IMG/VR virus record: IMGVR_UViG_3300025769_000312
Location: 1-38,589 of that record
Length of the DNA stretch: 38,589 nt
Reading direction: 5' to 3' (one strand)
Source of the DNA: a virus
Part shown: positions 2,706 to 38,198 of the stretch, one piece after another
Layout: every line of letters begins with the position of its first letter
How positions within the stretch are numbered: the first letter of the stretch is position 1
Made by a program: the position numbers and the translations under genes
Notes under the pieces: generated by a model
Databases searched by the model: none
Seen by the model: only the letters and a program-made list of their open reading frames with translations
Told to the model about the DNA's origin: nothing

Positions 2706-2955
2706 TTTTTTTCTCCCAAAGAATGCAACCAAAGTTAGGGCGCGTACCTAGAGACGCTGAATATCCTGATGCGTCTTGAGCTATGGCAAAGATGTGTTCA
2801 GGAACAATCCAATCGAAGGGTTCTTTTTCCTGCCATTCTCCAACGGTTTCACGGTGAGGAATCTTGGAGCATTCACCAAAACCAGCGTTAGCCCAGTGCT
2901 TTTCTGGTGAACTCCAATGAATGCAATTTAAGCAAATGCATGCGCCTGGAATCAT
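2695..2955 (-). CDS. Cysteine-containing hypothetical protein, 86 aa
   Basis: The N-terminus carries CICLNCIHW, followed by GECSKIPH and a later FGCILWEKK. Four or five cysteines spaced this way suggest a small zinc-binding fold, but I recognise no named family. The ATG (2953-2955) overlaps the TGA of the preceding gene, a coupled ATGA junction. It sits next to another cysteine-patterned small protein, which hints at related functions. Confidence 0.7.
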   Translation of the reverse strand: MIPGACICLNCIHWSSPEKHWANAGFGECSKIPHRETVGEWQEKEPFDWIVPEHIFAIAQDASGYSASLGTRPNFGCILWEKKNER

Positions 2956-3200
2956 GGCTTACCGGCCAGTCCGCAGTAGCCATCGGTGTTACTTTGCAAC
3001 GTCCGCCGAAGGTCCGTCCCACGCATGTAGGCTTCGCGTTCGCTTTCTAACCTCTCGCCCCATCGCCAGGCCATACACTCGGAGCCGATGCATTGTGCAA
3101 AACTCGACGCACCGCCACCCATTCTGCGGTTGGCTGCGTAGTTGGTCCTAGCGACCAGCGCAAACGGGCACCACTTGGTCTTGGCTTCGTCCTCTGTCAT
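2952..3200 (-). CDS. Conserved small phage protein with CPFA...CxxxxCMAWRW...GYCGLAGKP pattern, 82 aa
   Basis: The pattern KWCPFA near residue 10, QCIGSECMAWRWG around residues 36-48 and a C-terminal GYCGLAGKP is one I recall in many small phage proteins of unknown function. The four conserved cysteines probably bind zinc. The ATG overlaps the stop of the membrane protein gene upstream (3197-3199). No enzymatic motif is visible. The function is unknown; the early-cluster position is compatible with a host-interaction role. Confidence 0.75.
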   Translation of the reverse strand: MTEDEAKTKWCPFALVARTNYAANRRMGGGASSFAQCIGSECMAWRWGERLESEREAYMRGTDLRRTLQSNTDGYCGLAGKP

Positions 3201-3415
3201 AGCCTCACCGCTAGTCTGAATAAAATTGAGAAGAACAAACCGCCAAAGATGGCAGTCATCATGCCGCTAAAAGTTCCCCAGAAGAGGAACATCAGTCCAA
3301 GTGTTACGGCGATGTCCATTGGCACTTCGATGTACTTGAAGCGCCTAAATCCGATCTTCCAAAGAACGATCAGGATGGCGATCGATGTCAGGATGCCTGC
3401 GAAGAGCCCTTCCAT
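3197..3415 (-). CDS. Small membrane protein, two predicted TM helices, 72 aa
   Basis: Almost the whole protein is hydrophobic: helix one around residues 3-20 (LFAGILTSIAILIVLWKIGF), a short basic loop (RRFKYIEV), then a longer hydrophobic part (residues 34-66) with Gly-rich stretches. It should be an inner-membrane protein. It is far from the lysis genes, so holin function is not favoured; superinfection exclusion or host takeover is possible but unsupported. GGGGGAC precedes the ATG. Confidence 0.7.
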   Translation of the reverse strand: MEGLFAGILTSIAILIVLWKIGFRRFKYIEVPMDIAVTLGLMFLFWGTFSGMMTAIFGGLFFSILFRLAVRL

Positions 3416-4793: not shown

Positions 4794-4820
4794 TTGCTTT
4801 CCTTTTTTGCATTTACGTCC

Positions 4821-5051
4821 GAAGGCTCCACCTTCTGGTTTGGTTTTTGGTTCTTTTCAGGGCAAAGCCCTGGTGTTGAGCGCTAGGGCTCGGGAGCCCT
4901 GGCTGTAGCTCGGCATTTCTTGGTGCCTAAAAGTCAAAAAAGAAGGGAGAAGGCCGAAGCCCTCTCCCTCAGATTCACCGAGCCCTTATCCTTAGTGGTG
5001 AGGTTTTAGCGCCTCACTCCCGGGTGGGCCTCGCCATTCGGTGTCCTGGCG
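4821..5051 (-). other. Hairpin-rich 3'UTR/leader between two leftward genes
   Basis: The 258-base gap 4794-5051 holds six perfect inverted repeats with 5-6 bp or longer arms: 5032-5036/5047-5051, 4998-5003/5012-5017, 4945-4954/4959-4968 (the terminator), 4885-4890/4895-4900, 4858-4863/4867-4872 and 4821-4825/4831-4835. On the leftward transcript two precede the terminator and three follow it in the leader of the 156-residue gene. No open reading frame with a ribosome-binding site is present. Confidence 0.55.
4930..4968 (-). terminator. Intrinsic terminator with UUCG tetraloop
   Basis: On the minus strand a 10-bp stem (arms 4959-4968 and 4945-4954, one G-U pair) closes on a C-UUCG-G tetraloop and is followed by TTCTTTTTTGACTTTT. 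This is a textbook rho-independent terminator. It lies about 85 bases past the stop of the 183-residue gene and would cap a short early transcript from the 6106-6609 region, leaving downstream genes dependent on readthrough or antitermination. Confidence 0.85.
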
Positions 5052-5781: not shown

Positions 5782-5854
5782 CCAGGATCTCCATGAGTTC
5801 TTTGATGCGTTGCTCCTGACCAATTGGAGCTCTTAGGTCGAGAATGTTTCTCAT
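5687..5854 (-). CDS. Hypothetical acidic protein, 55 aa
   Basis: A short acidic helical protein (MRNILDLRAPIGQEQRIKEL...) ending VLTYEEEAKERTA. Its ATG overlaps the stop of the 84-residue gene as ATGA, the junction typical of this cluster, and GGAGATCAGCA precedes it. Unknown function. Its 3' half is overlapped in another frame by a possible membrane protein. Confidence 0.65.
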   Translation of the reverse strand: MRNILDLRAPIGQEQRIKELMEILDELDPDTETAEEIASDIWVLTYEEEAKERTA

Positions 5855-6105
5855 TGCTGATCTCCTTCGAGTTCTGCTTCAAGGAAAACGATGGTCTCTT
5901 CGATGCTTTCGATGAGTCTCAATGTCCTTTCTTTGTGTGTTGCATAGGATGCTGAGTTGAGCTTCTTTGCTGGTTCTAAGAGCCATTGAAGCGTTTCTAT
6001 CTCGTTTCTCGCTTCTCTCAAGTTTCTCTCTAGTTGGCCTCTGACGAAAGCCGGTGATTCTTCTTCCGGCTCTTCGCACTCCATCCAGTCAGCTTCTCTA
6101 TCCAT
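5851..6105 (-). CDS. Hypothetical acidic coiled-coil protein, 84 aa
   Basis: The first gene of the leftward cluster. It is very acidic (MDREADWMECEEPEEESP) with a long predicted coiled coil (residues 25-80: NLREARNEIETLQWLL ... IESIEETIVFLEAELEG). AGGAGA lies ten bases before the ATG. Acidic first-gene products of phages are sometimes DNA mimics or inhibitors of host nucleases, but there is no direct evidence here. It ends in an ATGA overlap with the next gene. Confidence 0.75.
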   Translation of the reverse strand: MDREADWMECEEPEEESPAFVRGQLERNLREARNEIETLQWLLEPAKKLNSASYATHKERTLRLIESIEETIVFLEAELEGDQQ

Positions 6106-6609
6106 GTCTCACTCTCCTAATCAGCGCTCGGAATGAACGCCTCAAGGCGCTAATTTTGCACTGTCAAGAGGGTCAGAAACCTTTGACTCAAACCAGAGCT
6201 GCACGGAGAAAGGAGCCCGCTAGGGCGACTGCCGGAGGAAGCGACTCCCGATACCAAGTAGATAGGAAAGAACACGCTCACGAGGCTGTATGGGCCCTCT
6301 TTACTGTGCGAAATATATCCCGCCGGGCGTTCATGATGATGATGATGTAGCTTTACTTGGCGAACGCAGAGGTTAGAGGCTGTGTAACGACTCAAACGCA
6401 CTAAGCTGGTCTTTGGTCCTACCTAAGTGAAGCAGTCTCTTACCGACGCGGCGGAGCTTAGGTAAAGCATGTTCCAGCTAAAGGATTCGGTACCACGCTA
6501 ACGGCCGGCAGGCCGTACTTTCTAAGGCCGTAAGGCCTCATGGTCGTCAGACCTGCATCCGTGCTAACATCCAGCGCAAAGATACCGCTAATCTAAAGTA
6601 AGGCTCAAG
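6106..6609. ncRNA. Non-coding divergent region with nested inverted repeats; candidate structured RNA
   Basis: This 504-base stretch separates the leftward cluster from terS. Both frames with open stretches lack ribosome-binding sites. The DNA is dense in perfect inverted repeats. AGCTGG (6404-6409) pairs with CCAGCT (6474-6479) and encloses TACCTAAG (6420-6427) / CTTAGGTA (6457-6464), which encloses CTC/GAG and CCG/CGG. Three neighbouring hairpins follow: 6501-6506/6511-6516, 6525-6529/6534-6538 (GTAA loop) and 6542-6545/6550-6553. GCCC/GGGC at 6215-6226 is another. It must contain the promoters of both flanking units, but I find no convincing sigma70 pair. It could be a structured RNA, an antitermination element or an origin. 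Confidence 0.5.
6333..6347 (+). repeat. (ATG)5 microrepeat
   Basis: Five uninterrupted ATG triplets inside the non-coding divergent region, ending in TAG. It is a slippage-prone simple repeat with no coding role that I can see. Confidence 0.9.
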
Positions 6610-7158
6610 ATGGCTCGACAACCAAGGTCTAAGCTCTCACAGCAGGAAGAAGCATTCTGCATCGCTTTTGTTACCAATAATGGTAAGCGTAAAGACGCTG
6701 CACTCGAGGCAGGATACGCAGAATCAGCCGCAGGCGTCTCAGCTTCAAGGCTCTTGCAAAGACAGCATGTCCTTGATCGAATCCAACAACTCAATCAAGC
6801 CCAGTTTAGAGCTCTAGGACCAGGACTACTCGCGGGTATGGTCAAACTCGCAGAGAAGGCTAAATCAGAGAAAGTCAGACATGACTCTCTCAAGGATCTA
6901 CTCGATAGAGCCGGATATAAGCCGATAGAACAAGTACTTAACCTCGAATCAACAACATCAGAAGATGTCTCTCTTCTAAGAGAGCGAGCGCAGAAACTGC
7001 TCTTGGCTATTGATAAGAAAGAACAACAGATTAACCAGGATCAGGTTAATAAGGATGGAGATACGAGTGAGGGAGTGTCCAACGACACTACACACACGTC
7101 AAAACCTAAGCCGGTGGGTGATGATATTGACGAAGGAACGCCTGGTTCTGTCCATTAG
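6610..7158 (+). CDS. terS: Terminase small subunit, 182 aa
   Basis: The N-terminal half matches the small terminase (Terminase_2-like) helix-turn-helix layout: LSQQEEAFCIAFVTNNGKRKD then AALEAGYAESAAGVSASRLL, followed by helices that would form the oligomerisation part (to about residue 120). The C-terminus is hydrophilic and low-complexity (residues 135-182). TerS recognises the packaging site on phage DNA and guides TerL. TAAGG precedes the ATG. The gene is separated from terL by a 537-base non-coding stretch, which is unusual because the two are normally adjacent; the packaging site may lie in that gap or in 6106-6609. Confidence 0.85.
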   Translation: MARQPRSKLSQQEEAFCIAFVTNNGKRKDAALEAGYAESAAGVSASRLLQRQHVLDRIQQLNQAQFRALGPGLLAGMVKLAEKAKSEKVRHDSLKDLLDRAGYKPIEQVLNLESTTSEDVSLLRERAQKLLLAIDKKEQQINQDQVNKDGDTSEGVSNDTTHTSKPKPVGDDIDEGTPGSVH

Positions 7159-7695
7159 GTCTCATGAGGGTGATTACTCTCCCTCAGGTGCACAATCTTC
7201 GCTTGTTCTTTGTTAGTTTTTTTTGTCTATCAGTGACCCCTATGTCCCCCAATTGATCTCCGATCTTGCGGGGAGATACTCCACTCTACATTGGCCCTAA
7301 AAAGTTGCGGGTGTTGCATGGATGTCACAGTTGATATTTGGTGTTTGGGTTAGCTCACCCGTGTTTGGTGTATAAATTGGTGTTTTGGGTGATTTTGTCT
7401 GACAGACCAAAGTGTTGTTATTAGGGGGTTTTTTGGACAGAAGCACTAACGAGTGCCAAATTTGGCACTGTTTAATTATGGAGTGCCAATTCTGTCACCA
7501 CCAAAGGGTTGTATTTTGGTGTTAGAGAGTTGGTTTTCTGAGATATTTTGGGGAGAGTATTTTGCCCGGCTCGAGGATCTTGAAGATCGCAGAGTGTTTT
7601 TGGTGACGGGGCGGAAAGACAGATATCATGGATTTGGATATTCGACTAGATGTGTCCCTGCGACATGTTGTCGCACCCTATGTTAGGAGTTGTTG
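7159..7695 (+). promoter_or_regulatory. G/T-rich non-coding region between terS and terL
   Basis: The 537 bases carry no credible gene. The + strand is strongly G/T-biased from about 7300 to 7620. Visible elements: an inverted repeat TGAGGG/CCCTCA at 7166-7187; an eight-T run near 7215; ATCTCC/GGAGAT around 7255-7277; a repeated word TTTGGTGT (7337, 7364, 7515, with ATTGGTGTT at 7377); TCACCC/GGGTGA enclosing 7357-7390; and an operator-like palindrome at 7452-7469. TATAAA at 7371-7376 is a possible -10 box. The stretch could hold the late promoter, an origin, or the packaging signal. Confidence 0.45.
7443..7487. promoter_or_regulatory. Operator-like palindrome cluster
   Basis: AGTGCCAAATTTGGCACT (7452-7469) is a perfect 18-bp palindrome. 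A GCACT half-site lies just before it (7443-7447, forming an inverted repeat with 7452-7456) and another AGTGCC half-site follows at 7482-7487. Four half-sites in 45 bases suggest cooperative binding of a dimeric repressor or activator. A near copy (15 of 18 bases) lies at 37042-37059. The binding protein is unknown; the Cro-like product of 36100 is a candidate. Confidence 0.55.
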
Positions 7696-9156
7696 ATGTC
7701 TGACACGGATCTCGAGAATGTCCCGCTAGACGATCAGTACGCTGAGCTGGCTCGGATTACGGATGAGCTCGAGCGGTACGAGCGGTTTAACAAGTTGCTG
7801 CTTTACTATCCGTATCCGAAGCAGATGCAGTTTCACGCGGCGACGGAGCGTGAGCGTATGCTGATGGCCGCCAACCAAGTAGGCAAAACATGGTGTGCTG
7901 GCGCTGAGGTCGCTTTTCACATGACGGGGCTATATCCGGATTGGTGGCCTGAGACAGCGAGGCGATACAGCACTGGGACTGAGTGGTGGGCTGGTGGTGT
8001 TACGGCCGAAACGACCCGCGATAACCCTCAGAGAGTGCTCTTAGGCCGGAAGAGAGAATACGGGACCGGCATGATCCCCTTGCAGGCCCTAGACGTTGTG
8101 CAGCTCGCCCGTGGGATACCAGACGCCGTGGACAACTTCACTGTCACACACGTTTCCGGCCAGACCAGCTATTGCTGGTTTAAGTCCTACGAGAAAGGGC
8201 GTGAGAAGTGGCAGGGAGAGACCCTTAGAGGCGGTATCTGGTTCGATGAGGAACCGCCCCTAGAGATCTACACAGAAGGCCTGACACGGCTTAACGTGTC
8301 CCAAGGGCCTACCCTACTGACGTTTACCCCTCTAATGGGAATGTCAGAGGTTGTCAGGCGCTTTATGCAGCCCGAAGAGAAAGCCAAAAAGTCTGCCCGG
8401 TTTTACGTCCAGATGGACCTGGAAGATGCTCAGCACTACAGCGACGAAGATCGCGCTTCAATCATCGACCAGTATCCAGATCACGAAAAAGACGCCCGTG
8501 CACGGGGTATCCCGATGCTCGGTTCTGGGCGTATCTACCCGATCCCCGAAGAACAGATCAAATTTAACCTATCGGACATGGCTGGTGGCTTCCCCTCGTA
8601 CTGGCGTGGATGGGGCGCAGTTGACTTTGGAGACTGGGACCATCCAACGGCCGCTGTATTCATGCGCTTTGATGCAGATACCGATACCATCTATCTCTAT
8701 GACGCCTACCGGCAGAGCCGAGAGAAACTTGCAGTCCACACCAAAGCGATTAAAGGACGCGGCAAATGGATCCCGATGGCATGGCCGCATGACGGTCATA
8801 AGCATGACGGCCGTTCAGGTGAACCGATCGCAGATTTATGGCGTAAAGACGGCGTAAAGATGCATAAAGAACACGCCACGCATGAAGCCGGCGGTTTTTC
8901 CGTCGAAGCCGGTATTACTGAATTGCTTGACAGGATGAGCACTGGTCGGTTTAAGGTGGCTTCACACTTAAACGATTGGTGGGACGAATTCCGTACCTAC
9001 CATCGTAAAGATGGCAAGATAGTCAAAGAACGAGACGATTTGATGGATGCAACCCGGTACGCGATTATGATGCAACGAATCGCGAGATTGCCGGGCGACT
9101 CAAATCTACGCCCTCAGTCTTTTGGCACCGTCGAAAATTACTCGGTTTTTGGTTAA
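7696..9156 (+). CDS. terL: Terminase large subunit, 486 aa
   Basis: The packaging motor. An N-terminal ATPase has Walker A AANQVGKT (about residues 58-65) and Walker B GIWFDEEPP (about residue 184). The C-terminal RNase H-like nuclease has AVDFGDWDHP (about residue 309) and late acidic residues in ERDDLMDATRYAI (about 444-455). The length is normal for podoviral TerL. The ATG at 7696 has AGGAG six bases upstream, better than the TTG two codons earlier. TerL assembles on the portal with TerS, pumps DNA into proheads and cuts the concatemer. The portal gene follows after three bases. Confidence 0.95.
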   Translation: MSDTDLENVPLDDQYAELARITDELERYERFNKLLLYYPYPKQMQFHAATERERMLMAANQVGKTWCAGAEVAFHMTGLYPDWWPETARRYSTGTEWWAGGVTAETTRDNPQRVLLGRKREYGTGMIPLQALDVVQLARGIPDAVDNFTVTHVSGQTSYCWFKSYEKGREKWQGETLRGGIWFDEEPPLEIYTEGLTRLNVSQGPTLLTFTPLMGMSEVVRRFMQPEEKAKKSARFYVQMDLEDAQHYSDEDRASIIDQYPDHEKDARARGIPMLGSGRIYPIPEEQIKFNLSDMAGGFPSYWRGWGAVDFGDWDHPTAAVFMRFDADTDTIYLYDAYRQSREKLAVHTKAIKGRGKWIPMAWPHDGHKHDGRSGEPIADLWRKDGVKMHKEHATHEAGGFSVEAGITELLDRMSTGRFKVASHLNDWWDEFRTYHRKDGKIVKERDDLMDATRYAIMMQRIARLPGDSNLRPQSFGTVENYSVFG

Positions 9157-12184: not shown

Positions 12185-12201
12185 AGGAAATAGGATTACT
12201 T

Positions 12202-12323
12202 AGCGGCTTGTCCGCTTTGCCCTAACCGTCGAAAGACCGCTAGGGGCGCGTTAGCCCAAGGATGGGCCTGACATTAGTCAGACTACTCAGCCGACAGAAT
12301 CGATCATCTGTTCTCTGGGAGAA
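12202..12323 (+). ncRNA. Hairpin-tiled leader of the capsid gene
   Basis: Within the 144-base gap before the capsid gene six short stems follow one another: AGCGG/CCGCT (12202-12216); CCCTA/TAGGG (12220-12245) enclosing GTC-GAAA-GAC with a GNRA loop; GCCCA/TGGGC (12254-12267); CTGAC/GTCAG (12268-12281); ACAGA/TCTGT (12294-12311); and TTCTC/GAGAA (12311-12323). The third and fourth abut and could stack. The last contains the GGGAGA ribosome-binding site of the capsid gene, six bases before its ATG, so it could control translation. Alternatively this is an RNA-processing or stability element for the most abundant phage mRNA. Confidence 0.6.
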
Positions 12324-12328
12324 AACTA

Positions 12329-13234
12329 ATGTCTACAGAAGTACCTGTTTCATTTAAACAACAGTATCGAGACAACTTTATTATGTTGTCTCAGCAAAAA
12401 GGTTCGAAGCTTCGCGGCGCAGTTCGCGATGATCCGGATATGCTTGAAGGCAAAGCCGGTTACTTCGACCGCATCGGCGCAACTGCAATGCAGCGGCGCA
12501 CTTCCCGCCACCAGGACACGCCTCTTGTTTCGACTCCGCACAGCCGGCGTCGGCTCACGCTTGAGGATTTTGTCTGGGCCGATCTCATCGACAAAGCCGA
12601 TCGGGCCAAAATGGCGGCAGATCCTGATAGCTCCTACATGACCAACGCGGTCTGGGCTGCTGGTCGTGAATACGACACGGCAATCTACGGAGCGATGGGT
12701 GGTAGCGCATACTCGATGGACGAAGACGACGCGGCGACAGCCGTTGCTTTGCCTTCCGCCCAAAAAGTTGCGGTCAACAACCACACCTACGACGCGGGTT
12801 CCGGCGATGTCGGATTGACCGTGGGCAAGCTTATCGCAGCTCGCGATATCTTGCTTGCAGCGGATGCAGTGGATCCTGACGATACGCTGTTTTGCGTTGC
12901 AAACTCGAAGCAGCTTTCCAATCTGCTCGCTGAAACGGAAGTGACGAGCCGAGATTACAACGATGTCTATGCGTTGAAGACCGGCCAGATCGACACTTTC
13001 ATGGGCTTCAAGTTCATTATGTACAACAACCTCAGCGTAGATACCTCGAGCGATCAGCTCGTCTATTGCTGGCATCCTTCGGCGATCGGACTCGGGATCG
13101 GCATGGATATCGGTGTTGAGATGGATGTGCGGCCTGACAAAAACTACTCGACACAGGTGTTCGTCGACATGTCGATCGGGGCTACCCGCATCGAAGAAGA
13201 GAAAGTTGTCGAAATCGCCTGCGACCCGACCTAA
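12329..13234 (+). CDS. Major capsid protein, 301 aa
   Basis: The sequence fits the podoviral capsid family seen in BPP-1/epsilon15-like phages: N-terminal helix (SFKQQYRDNFIMLSQQKGSKL), RRRLTLEDFVWADLIDKADRA, an Ala/Asp-rich centre, KLIAARDILLAADAVDPDDTLFC and FMGFKFIMYNNL, and a C-terminal GIGMDIGVEMDVRPDKNYSTQVFVDMSIGATRIEEEKVVEI. An HK97-like fold is expected. The GC-rich, regular codon choice is consistent with high expression and leaves the opposite strand open for over 300 codons, which is an artefact. The gene follows a structured leader. Confidence 0.9.
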   Translation: MSTEVPVSFKQQYRDNFIMLSQQKGSKLRGAVRDDPDMLEGKAGYFDRIGATAMQRRTSRHQDTPLVSTPHSRRRLTLEDFVWADLIDKADRAKMAADPDSSYMTNAVWAAGREYDTAIYGAMGGSAYSMDEDDAATAVALPSAQKVAVNNHTYDAGSGDVGLTVGKLIAARDILLAADAVDPDDTLFCVANSKQLSNLLAETEVTSRDYNDVYALKTGQIDTFMGFKFIMYNNLSVDTSSDQLVYCWHPSAIGLGIGMDIGVEMDVRPDKNYSTQVFVDMSIGATRIEEEKVVEIACDPT

Positions 13235-25017: not shown

Positions 25018-28000
25018 ATGACTGTAACAACTACAATTTCCCGCATGGAATACACCGGCAACGGTGTCACCACGACCTTTGCCTATAGCTTTAAAATCAA
25101 CACGGACTCCGAGCTTAAAGTCTGGCTGGTTACGACAGCAACGGGCGCTAAGACACTTCAGACCCTGACAACTCATTACACAGTAACGAATGCTGGCGAT
25201 GTTAGTGGCGGTAATGTCGAGATGATTACGGCACCCGCATCAACGGAAGAACTGGTTATTGAGCGATCGACTTCGACAACCCAGGCCGTCGATTACGTTG
25301 CAAACGATGCCTTTGCAGCTGAAACCCATGAAGGGGCTCTCGATAAGCTGACTTTGATTGCCCAGGATCTTCGTCGTGACGTTGATCGATCGATGCAGCT
25401 GGACAAAGAAACAGCTGATGCTGTTTCAACGATTATGCCGGTTCCCGAGGCAAATGCCTTTGTTGGTTGGAATGCTAGTGCCGATGCGCTTGTAAATTTC
25501 ACCACTACGCTTACAGGGACAGCCGTTACGCCTTTTATCGCAACATTGGTTGATGACACTAGCGCTGCTGCTGCTCGAGCGACCCTAGAGGCTCTTGCAG
25601 AAGATCTAGACCAGGATCGTCATGCTACTTCGTCTGGCACAAACACGATTACTCTAACGCTTGACCCGGCTCGTACAGCTTACACAGCTGGCGATATCGT
25701 GACGTTTAAAGCAGGCGGGACAAACACGGGTGCCGTTACTCTCAACGTGAATAGCCTTGGAGCAAAGACTGTTCAGTTCCGTGGAGCTGCGCTGGCTGCT
25801 GGGGACATTACTGCAAACAATTTTGTCGTTTGTGGGTATGACGGAACTCAGTTCCAAATGCTTTCACCTGTTGTTAAGCCCACAAGGGCAAGCCTTGGTT
25901 TAGACACAACAGACGACCCTACATTTAGTGATGTGACGGCGGACAGCCTTACGCTTGCTGCCGTCAATGCGATTACTTCGACCAACGCAAACTTTACAAA
26001 GCTGGCAAAGCAACGCTGGCTGGAAGACTTCTTCGAGGCTCGCTACTTTGACTTGCAAGCACATAACCCTAAGGTCATTAACGGCACTCTTTCTTGGTGG
26101 CCTAAGCATGGCAACCTCGATTGGATCGCCAGCCAGAACGCTGGCGACATTGACTTGCTTGCGGTTGATTGGCGCGACGGTACAACGCTTAAGACCTACA
26201 CTAGTTCGGATTTCTCGCAGCTAGGCGGCAAGACTTTGACCAGCATTGCGGCCGGGCATGCTGTCGTCGTGGTAGGCACTACGGCGGGGTATGTGTTTCT
26301 TGACTTCCGCAATGGTGCTCCAACGCAACGGCTGCGCGATACCGGAAGCGGTCTTGTCGATAATGATATCCACGCACTTGCGGTGGGCGTAGGCGGTCCT
26401 GACAACCCTGTTGTCGGCAACGGCCTTGTTCCAGTTATCGGCGGCCAATACGGCGCCGGCACTGATGTAGCCTTTATTGAGAACCATCGCGGCGTACACA
26501 ACCAAAACAACGGCGGCAACGGCGGCGCAATGTATGCCGTTGGTTTTACTGGTGGGTACTTTAATTATGTAACCAGCCCAACAACAAATCAGGTTGTTCA
26601 AACGTCAGATTTTGCTTCCGATATTTCCGCTGATGATTGGGGGAATGCGGGCCTTGCCGTCAACAACAGCTGGCCTCGCTTCTTTGGTGGCGAAACTTTC
26701 GCTGCAAGCAATGGTCGGGACACACTTCTTTTCGGTTCTGCTGAGGGCATTAGCTTGGTGCATAACCCGGCGCGTGACATTCCGAATAGCAGCGTTGGCT
26801 TCGACATGGACAGCAGCCGGTGCATTGCCCGCGCTGGTAACCATAAGAGCAGCTGGTTTGTCGATAGCATTACGGCGGATCGCGGCCCTGACGGCACGAC
26901 GCTGACACACACTGGTGGCGGACTAACAATCGCTTCGGCGAACGGCACCAGCACAAAGCAGATGGTGTCAGGCTTTGACGCCTCGAACTATGCGGAAGTC
27001 TCCAGCAACGTCTTCAACAACGCCTCGGACCCGTTCGGCTTTGCGGTTGATTTCCGGTCGGATGGAACCCTCAACGCATCGAACAACTACATTCTCAACT
27101 GGCACGATACAAGCGCCAACACCTCACGTGTCTACGCTCTTTGTGGGACGGGTGGAATGGCAGTCGGTGTCTATGATAGTGGCGGGTCAACAACGGGCAT
27201 CGAACTAACCTTCGGTCCTACTGTCGCGGAATTAAACGACGAGCCAGATCGCGTTCATACGCTGGCAGTCCTAGTTCGTCCGGGCAAAGGGGTTTTCTGC
27301 TGGCTTGACGGTGAGTTCATGGGCTTTGATGGGAATAGTCTTTTCGTCAATTCGATGGCTCCAAGCGGTACAAACACTTTCCGTGTTGGTGCTGCGGTTG
27401 TGAATGCGAGCTACGGTTCACCCAGCGAGCAACCCTTCGGCGGCTCCATCGGTGAGATTACGCACTTTGAGGATGCTATTGTCTCCAACCCCGACGCTCA
27501 CGCTTGGTGGGCCGCACACCGCATCCGTTCATACGACGAAGATGTTGTCTGCGTTCTCCCGGCAAACGAAACGCCTGACGCTGGCGACCTAGACAAGACG
27601 GCAGCCGGTCTTGCCCGTGGCATTGTCTGCGGCGCGACCAAGACCTTCTTGCTCGACGGGCTGGCGGTCACTGAGGTTGCTCCAACCGGGATCAACGCGC
27701 ATGTGGATCAGGTCTACCGGAGCCGGAACGAGTACGGGATGCTTGATAGTGTCGGTGCTCATTACCAGAACCGGGACGCTATCGACATCGAGGAGACGTC
27801 TCGCGCGATGGTGAGTGCTCCGCGTTGGCTAGAGCCGGCCGGCAAGGTTGGTATTGATGCCTACATGGCAGCAAGCAAATCCAATGTCACTGGAGATGCT
27901 ACGAACTACACAGTTCCGATCGATACGGTAAAGAAGCAAACCGGCTTAGTGCTGGATACAGCGACCGGGGTAATCCACGTTCTTGTTTCCGGCTATTACG

Positions 28001-36303: not shown

Positions 36304-36758
36304 GTGTATTGGCAATTGATCCAGGCACGACTGCTGGCTTTTACGTTGTCAATAAAGACAAGCATTCAGTCTTTACACTCAAGCTCAAACAGAAAGAGAT
36401 AGGTTCTCGTCTTAATACGTTTCTTGAGCATCTTGATGTCATCAATAACCGTCATTGGGTTAATCACATCGTCTTTGAGGATCCTTTTGTCAGTTCCTAT
36501 CGCTCTGCTCGTTTTCAATATGCAATGACGGGCTTAATTTACATTGCTGCCTACCGTCAAAAAGCAACGATCACATCTCTTCATCCAAGCAAGATCAAGA
36601 AACTTGCTACTGGCAAAGGCAATGCTAAGAAGGATGAAATGATCGCAGCAGCAAAAGCTGCGGTTCCTGACAATATTTACATCGATAATGAGCACGAAGC
36701 CGATGCCTATTGGGTCTATCGGACTTGGCTCCACAATCAGGAGACAGCTAATGCTTAA
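36300..36758 (+). CDS. RuvC-like Holliday junction resolvase, 152 aa
   Basis: RNase H-fold motifs in order: LAIDPGTTAGF (Asp7), IVFEDPF (Glu60/Asp61) and NEHEADAYWVY (Glu133, Asp135). The length is right for RuvC-like crossover nucleases. It would cut Holliday junctions or branched DNA so that concatemers can be packaged. The ATG at 36300 overlaps the TGA of the Cro-like gene. Longer in-frame starts would overlap that gene without a ribosome-binding site. Confidence 0.85.
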   Translation: MSVLAIDPGTTAGFYVVNKDKHSVFTLKLKQKEIGSRLNTFLEHLDVINNRHWVNHIVFEDPFVSSYRSARFQYAMTGLIYIAAYRQKATITSLHPSKIKKLATGKGNAKKDEMIAAAKAAVPDNIYIDNEHEADAYWVYRTWLHNQETANA

Positions 36759-37410
36759 TCAAACAAGCCTACCTCTTTCTGTCATTACAGATGGCCGGAT
36801 CACTGACGCAGCTTTTAGATTGGCTTGCTACATATCGTGGTGCTCTACGGACGGTGAATGGGCTGAGGATGTAGAGAAAGTCTCGTCTAACCTTGGCTTG
36901 TCCAAACGGAACTATTTTCGGCTCAAAGGATATCTGATCGATGTTGGTATTCTGATTATCACAGAGACCAAATACCGTTATTCGGTCACATTCAGTTTAA
37001 AAACTGAGACATTTCAGCCAGAAACAATTAAAGAAGTGAAAAATGCCAAAAATGGCACTAATGAATCTTTCTTTTTGGATCCTGTGCCACATGCTCCACA
37101 GGCTTCAAAAATGCCTCTTAAGAGCGTTTCTGACTTTGAGGGGTTCTATGACACCTATCCTCGCAAAGTAGGCCGTAGATCGGCTGAAAAAGCCTATGCG
37201 GCTGCTTTAAAGCGTGGCGCTACACCAGAACAGCTCAAAACGGCTGCTGAAGCCTACTTGGCTTTTACGTCCGAAAGGAATACTGAGGCCAAATTCATTC
37301 CACATCCGGCCACTTGGCTTAATGCCGATCGATGGGAAGACGACGACATTAAGCCTTTTGTCGGCCAGCTTCTTCCGTCTGAAGGTGAATTGGCAGTCCA
37401 GACCATCTAA
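36751..37410 (+). CDS. Replication initiator, O-like / DnaD-like, 219 aa
   Basis: N-terminal winged-helix part (ITDAAFRLACYISWCS ... KVSSNLGLSKRNYFRLKGYLID) followed by a linker and the C-terminal segment FEGFYDTYPRKVGRRSAEKAYAAALKRG ... FIPHPATWLNADRWEDD, which I recognise from many phage replication initiators and helicase loaders. It would bind the origin and bring in the helicase. AGGAGA is placed perfectly before the ATG at 36751. It overlaps the RuvC-like gene by 8 bases. An operator-like sequence lies inside (37042). Its stop overlaps the end of the helicase gene by four bases. Confidence 0.8.
   Translation: MLNQTSLPLSVITDGRITDAAFRLACYISWCSTDGEWAEDVEKVSSNLGLSKRNYFRLKGYLIDVGILIITETKYRYSVTFSLKTETFQPETIKEVKNAKNGTNESFFLDPVPHAPQASKMPLKSVSDFEGFYDTYPRKVGRRSAEKAYAAALKRGATPEQLKTAAEAYLAFTSERNTEAKFIPHPATWLNADRWEDDDIKPFVGQLLPSEGELAVQTI
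37042..37059. promoter_or_regulatory. Operator-like near-copy of the 7452 palindrome
   Basis: AATGCCAAAAATGGCACT matches the palindrome at 7452-7469 in 15 of 18 positions, keeping both GCC/GGC arms. It lies within the replication initiator gene, so origins located inside initiator genes (as in lambda O) are a possible parallel. Confidence 0.4.
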
Positions 37411-38198
37411 ACTTCAGAGAAGTAAGGTCCGGTCATTTCCATTCTCAGCCCAGGCTTTTGCTTTGAGCCAATATTGACATAAGCCGTGTACCGGCTTTCG
37501 GTCATCTCGAGCCAAGCGTCTCTTTGAGTCTTCTCGCGATGAAGGTTGAACACCATGTCAAAGGCCAACAGCATGCCTTCACCACCACGGGTGTTGTTTT
37601 CTTGGTTTAGCTGAGCTGCAACTAAAGCCCAGATATCGTGTTCCTTAGTCTTTGTTGCAATCGACTGAGCAACATATTCAAGATGCTCTGTCCGGTTAGC
37701 AGAAGCGCCCTTAACGAGCTGTAGATAGTCCAAAATGATGCCGTTAACGCCGTGTTCCTTTACGGCTTTATCGATCATTTCTTCAAGCACTGACAGTGTA
37801 ACGCCGCTCGCATTGGCGTAAATCATGTTGTCAGCAGCCATTGATAGATATTCGCTGATGTCGGCTGGCGAGATCTTGTCTTTCAGAAAGTCATTGCTGT
37901 CACGTCCGAGAGCTCTTGCGATGTGTCTTTCTTCTAGCTCCCTGTCTGTCATTTCCGCAGCAATCCAGAGATGTTTAACGCCGTTCATGTTAAGGTTGTA
38001 GCTGATCGTTCCAAGCAAGATTGATTTACCGATTTTCTTGCGAGCTTGAACGCCATAAGCTTTGCCGGCGTACAAACCACCAGCCATGACGCGATCGAGT
38101 TTAGCAAGTCCCGTTGAGTCGCAATTTCCTTTGTCCTCTAGTTTTTGAATTACTGCTGTGATTGCGTTTTTGCGACTACGAAACGAAATGGTTTTCAT
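37407..38198 (-). CDS. DnaB-like replicative helicase, RecA-fold domain only, 263 aa
   Basis: Walker A ARKKIGKS (residues 52-59) has the DnaB form ARxxxGKS/T. AAEMTDRELEERHIA (residues 80-94) is helicase motif 1a and GIILDYLQL (153-161) is Walker B in its DnaB form. VAAQLNQEN (about 193-201) is motif 3. Only the C-terminal ATPase domain is present; the DnaB N-terminal domain is missing (family full length about 450). It may work as a small ring helicase with the neighbouring initiator or as a RecA/KaiC-like ATPase. Last gene of the leftward chain. Confidence 0.85.
   Translation of the reverse strand: MKTISFRSRKNAITAVIQKLEDKGNCDSTGLAKLDRVMAGGLYAGKAYGVQARKKIGKSILLGTISYNLNMNGVKHLWIAAEMTDRELEERHIARALGRDSNDFLKDKISPADISEYLSMAADNMIYANASGVTLSVLEEMIDKAVKEHGVNGIILDYLQLVKGASANRTEHLEYVAQSIATKTKEHDIWALVAAQLNQENNTRGGEGMLLAFDMVFNLHREKTQRDAWLEMTESRYTAYVNIGSKQKPGLRMEMTGPYFSEV

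Follow-up and report, generated by a model that had tools for sequence, protein, structure and literature searches.

We find that the half-kilobase gap separating the divergent gene units of the window (the whole 38,589-base virus record analysed here) carries a long imperfect hairpin at positions 6117–6350, which may be a small counterpart, in the window, of a long-hairpin element kept by several marine podophage lineages at the boundary before terS, the small terminase gene; we put the probability of this reading a little below one half (roughly 0.45). The element family in the relatives is clearly real. In the window itself the hairpin is short, and weak standing alone, and its claim to membership follows from the match of its place and shape to that family.

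The gap (6106–6609) is non-coding and lies between divergent units, as a first-pass annotation of this DNA had proposed, with a leftward gene on one side and terS on the other (Table 1); two open reading frames found inside it (6054–6350 on the plus strand, 6150–6401 on the minus strand) matched no Pfam family. The protein set of the window combines a P22-like large terminase with T7-like portal, capsid and internal virion proteins, and also includes a RecE-like exonuclease, an Erf-like annealing protein, a DnaB-like helicase and a replication initiator. At the protein level the nearest named relatives are Pelagibacter phages and one freshwater-spring phage, with Rhizobium and Microcystis phages also among the nearest for the large terminase, TerL. 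Near-identical contigs cross both ends of the record, so the window is circularly closed or permuted. The initiator is lambda-O-like, with internal repeats of its own, and runs convergently with the helicase on the minus strand (36688–38198), the two genes sharing four bases at their 3′ ends; this order is unusual, such genes usually forming one operon. Relatives were found by terL alignment, and the contigs retrieved in this way have the same layout as the window, with TerS proteins 35–45% identical to its own.

The further statement that this phage otherwise overlaps its genes was too strong, other sizeable gaps being present at 7159–7689, 12185–12328 and 4794–5051. The first of these, which separates terS from terL and is also about half a kilobase long, contains at most a doubtful 77-residue ORF; it has a palindrome (GTGCCAAATTTGGCAC, 7453–7468) plus repeats, and its 7300–7600 stretch folds with a z of about −4 on both strands.

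Table 1. Coordinates of the principal features in the window and of the capsid-upstream element in its relatives.
Feature	Sequence	Positions	Strand	Remark
First gene of leftward unit	window	5851–6105	−	84 aa, no family
Long imperfect hairpin	window	6117–6350	+	47 pairs; rod score 51.5
Outer nested stem, AGCTGG / CCAGCT	window	6404–6409 / 6474–6479	+	present as written
Inner nested stem, TACCTAAG / CTTAGGTA	window	6420–6427 / 6457–6464	+	present as written
Three short tetraloop hairpins	window	6501–6516, 6525–6538, 6542–6553	+	
Small terminase subunit terS, first gene of rightward unit	window	6610–7158	+	PHROG phrog_51, E 3.5e-12
Large terminase subunit terL	window	7690–9156	+	
Capsid-upstream element	window	12189–12296		capsid gene at 12329
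Capsid-upstream element	L073	4391–4499		
Capsid-upstream element	L071	4493–4601		
Capsid-upstream element	L075	7534–7635		
Capsid-upstream element	L047	4340–4449		
Capsid-upstream element	L069	14306–14405		
Capsid-upstream element	L016	6326–6433		

Hairpins were scored with a strict scheme, an earlier one having been discarded as too permissive, and since the strict score is inflated on GC-rich contigs, we used z-scores and shuffles. Only 1 of 1000 dinucleotide shuffles matched or beat the score of the 6117–6350 hairpin, which is the second-best long hairpin of the genome (the best, at 26409–26665, lies inside a tail gene). Its arms include a 20-nt inverted repeat (6153–6172/6295–6314) and the pairing of TGAACGCC with GGCGTTCA, its head is branched and roughly 120 nt long, and its left foot is abutted by the ribosome-binding site of the leftward gene. 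The plus strand appears to pair better than the minus, both by rod score (51.5 versus 46.0) and by the fold of segment 6131–6336 (z −3.1 versus −0.7), but the strand-neutral ratio of G-U to A-C is only 5:3. The hairpin is invariant across the close contigs of the window, all of which are near-identical to it. A covariance model built on the core of the sister group recovered only that group and left the window unmatched. Folded as a whole, the gap gave a z of −1.23 on the plus strand and −0.04 on the minus strand.

Other searches of the region were negative. No tRNA or tmRNA was detected in the window, no sigma-70 promoter was recognised between 5600 and 7800, and a DNA search of annotated phages with the gap and the rods returned no sequence homologs. 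A search of the rest of the phage for antisense targets of the gap gave none above chance, and a 16-nt antisense match in one relative (L069) was rejected, a palindromic hairpin being involved. As a test for an origin, direct repeats were sought across 6106–6609 and none was convincing, with only one 14-nt family in two copies; CGCTAA was rejected as a repeated site, its frequency being at chance.

In three sister contigs (L067, L068 and L069) the interval between the leftward unit and terS is occupied by a nearly continuous 400-nt hairpin of 150–171 bp, with a fold z of −18 to −22 on the plus strand and, in the consensus, a three-way junction at its tip. A second group (L072, L075 and L123) has 300-nt rods (z −8 to −12) unrelated in sequence to those of the first, and shorter hairpins occupy the identical slot in L076, L232 and L230. 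The TerS proteins of L075 and L076 are 94% identical and the sequence between their shared flanks is unrelated, with a hairpin in both. No such hairpin was found in L074, where the stretch upstream of terS (2842–3202) holds an array of short tetraloop-type hairpins (14 versus 2.7 expected, with CCAGCAGAATGCTGG present twice). The same screen, applied to some 20 TerS loci at greater distance, gave values mostly within the shuffle range; two of these loci were later found to have hairpins, namely L020 and L240, that of L240 lying mostly beyond the screened stretch. An Rfam search of the window and eight relatives gave no match, the GOLLD/ROOL and phi29 packaging RNA models included, and the literature searched contains no description of a hairpin RNA at the position upstream of terS.

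The L020 lineage shows the element at its largest. L020 itself, whose terL falls within a large marine group, has a 51-pair hairpin with its start adjoining the leftward gene, and in its lineage a rod precedes terS in most loci having enough upstream sequence, several with z below −10. Once the span limit was lifted, four of the longest proved to be 1.07–1.15 kb in length, with 394–451 pairs and z-scores of −30 to −39. Two observations argue against assembly fold-back artefacts: the pattern recurs across independent metagenomes, and the arms are not perfectly complementary. In three of the longest rods (L317 4161–5261, L349 1928–2993 and L362 676–1820) a leftward early gene some 130 residues long is overlapped by the 5′ arm; the 3′ arm repeats this gene in inverted, non-coding form and is richer in G and T. 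Between the rod and terS, most of the loci examined (L304–L380) have a near-invariant TTGACA promoter-like box and then a purine-rich G tract (GGGGGGAGAGAGGGAGAGGGGGG), 37–260 bases before terS (for example at L362 1830–1885); the tract could favour an R-loop, or could be a packaging or origin signal. A sigma-70-like promoter so placed would leave the rod absent from the terS message that it starts, and this position, together with the overlap of 5′ arm and leftward gene, argues that the rod of the L020 lineage is not simply a terS leader; if transcribed rightward, it would start from upstream and run antisense to the early gene. Among cultured pelagiphages, Hodr has a 68-pair hairpin within 202 nt (z −8), whose arms resemble a single leader present in two copies facing outward; in Baldr the divergent gap, 1.2 kb long, lacks a hairpin of this kind. 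It may be that the two names were exchanged on deposition: locus tags in OQ414635.1, the Hodr record, read EXVC032PBaldr, and those in OQ414636.1, the Baldr record, read EXVC031PHodr.

Between groups, sequence is not conserved and pairing is. Comparative alignment, put forward as a check in the first-pass annotation, found pairing kept by compensatory changes in the two groups of relatives tested. In the first group (L067, L068 and L069), two-sided change occurs at 31 of 174 pairs against 13.6 in shuffles, a signal that was lost when partners were shifted by one to three columns, and in the second (L072, L075 and L123) at 23 pairs against 8.2; pairwise comparisons gave 13 two-sided changes against 3.5, 7 against 1.4 and 44 against 24. 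Between L349 and L363, which are 95% identical, single changes that keep pairs and those that break them stand at 17:16, indicating weak selection on individual pairs.

The strand-neutral ratio of G-U to A-C is 22:5, 20:3 and 15:3 in the first group and 34:6, 61:21, 63:8 and 55:23 in the four giant rods; the bias is weaker in L072 (10:8), absent in Hodr and L336 (3:3 in each) and reversed in L310 (5:10), and in L309, L310 and L340 the opposite strand pairs slightly better. The excess of G-U over A-C in the best-paired rods favours folding of the rightward, terS-sense strand. Part of the signal could also arise from strand-biased mutation and gene conversion, but the scattering of the two-sided changes, along with the pairwise comparisons, argues that these processes are not the full explanation.

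The gap marks the boundary between a leftward early unit and a rightward packaging and structural unit, and the better pairing of the terS-sense strand in the best-paired rods suggests that the active form of the element is a folded single strand, most likely a rightward RNA running across the boundary and folding into a rod that is double-stranded for most of its length; least certain of all, such a rod might shield, or expose to RNase III, the stretch where early and late transcripts would run antisense to one another. For a role in shielding or cutting only the shape would matter, and the sequence could be swapped. We propose, with slightly more hesitation than for the window's hairpin, that abundant marine podophages may encode hairpin RNAs of rod shape and kilobase size next to terS, where early and late units meet, conserved in shape and not in sequence and in one lineage formed by copying an early gene in inverted orientation, which would make up a new class of phage RNA. 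The rods, if transcribed, would be unusually long, near-continuous RNA hairpins made by these phages, and a natural target for RNase III, for dsRNA-dependent host responses or for early/late control. They would offer a case of selection on shape rather than sequence, and since only the shape is kept, sequence-based RNA searches miss them. One relative infects cultured Pelagibacter, which opens the question to experiment.

We considered whether the gap of the window could instead be an ordinary control region, with divergent promoters and untranslated leaders, in which 6117–6350 is a chance or minor inverted repeat bearing no functional homology to the rods. This is unlikely, if credible: the gap as a whole folds at a z of only −1.2, its 300-nt windows are ordinary within the genome, the hairpin within the tail gene scores higher and the sister-group model does not match the window, but the rarity of the score among shuffles, the exact slot and an apparent strand preference like that of the relatives speak against coincidence. 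Rather improbable, too, is an element acting at the level of DNA, its plus strand folding as single-stranded DNA or as a cruciform to serve as a replication origin or packaging start beside terS. Packaging sites often adjoin terS, as this element does, G-T pairs can stabilise DNA hairpins too, and an R-loop origin would be in keeping with the promoter and purine-rich G tract found in the L020 lineage; the cumulative GC-skew minimum also falls at 6–7 kb, although skew here tracks gene direction as well. For a TerS-binding site, however, the lack of sequence conservation between groups would be unexpected when the TerS proteins are 35–45% identical, and a replication initiator gene with repeats of its own is located elsewhere (36688–37410). 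A further reading, which we hold to be quite doubtful, is recurrent inverted duplication with no function for the hairpin itself: one arm would arise as a copy of the other (of the leftward gene, in the L020 lineage), after which it would decay under strand-biased mutation or be renewed by gene conversion. This would account for the arms of L317, L349 and L362 and for the even 17:16 balance of recent changes, but the two-sided changes fall at scattered single positions and not in tracts, a G-U:A-C ratio of up to 63:8 exceeds the usual, weaker mutational asymmetry, and in neither L349/L363 nor L312/L315 has the 3′ arm diverged faster than its 5′ partner.

Very improbable is the version in which nested stems and three hairpins between 6404 and 6553 form an antitermination site or an early structured RNA, as the first-pass annotation had suggested. 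The stems do exist, every pairing sequence being where it was read, and GTAA-loop hairpins like those at 6501–6553 recur before terS in L067, L069 and L074. They do no better than shuffles, however: the segment around the nested stems (6395–6485) folds with a z of only −1.5, that around the three hairpins (6485–6580) gives −2.0, and short perfect hairpins in the gap are at chance level (2 versus 1.55 expected, P 0.47). Of two variants within the gap among near-identical contigs, one (6458 T>C, in L002 and L046) disrupts the inner stem, converting A6426-U6458 to A-C on the plus strand. Rfam returned nothing credible for the gap at gathering or lenient thresholds, and nothing in the analysis supports antitermination. 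Double GC hairpins were also rejected as a wider motif, a pattern search of viral contigs yielding two unrelated contigs, one with a terminator-like hairpin. The annotation was right that the divergent region holds a sizeable structured element, which is borne out through the hairpins of the relatives, and wrong as to its location within the gap, the stems that it named lying outside the supported structure.

A separate, four-hairpin RNA-like element precedes the major capsid gene (Table 1). A model built on five sequences from relatives then matched L069/L070, L016 and the window, in each case directly before the capsid gene; the match to the window is weak alone (18 bits, E 0.096) and exact in position. 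The element has a conserved CGUUA loop and two hairpins that share a common asymmetric internal loop in opposite polarity, and two-sided change is seen at 22 of 30 pairs against 12.2 in shuffles, in an alignment that is model-fitted and leans towards the model. Comparison with Rfam gave nothing credible, and the element appears to be a covarying, RNA-like structure unlisted there.

Turning to known systems, the rods upstream of terS resemble the phi29 packaging RNA in that the latter is a packaging-linked phage RNA, and the tip of the sister-group rod is also a three-way junction. The phi29 RNA is about 120–170 nt long, with a conserved fold and a partner from a different ATPase class, and it differs in that the window and its relatives have no Rfam match. 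RNase III sites and leaders at the operon boundaries of lambda and T7 are likewise double-stranded hairpins at the edges of transcription units, but these span tens of base pairs, whereas the rods here span hundreds. The PLE inter-inverted-repeat transcript and the ICP1 ORF-less transcript are abundant RNAs of ORF-less satellite and phage regions, the former bounded by inverted repeats (PMC7567579); the PLE RNA lies between its repeats, whereas here the arms themselves would make up a continuous long stem. GOLLD and ROOL are large structured non-coding phage RNAs of unknown function, with complex multi-branched folds that Rfam models recognise, and often lie near tRNA genes (PMC12286853). The terS-side rods depart from them in having no sequence conservation between groups and in leaving the Rfam covariance models unmatched at gathering score, and are akin to them as large, structured, non-coding elements of phages.
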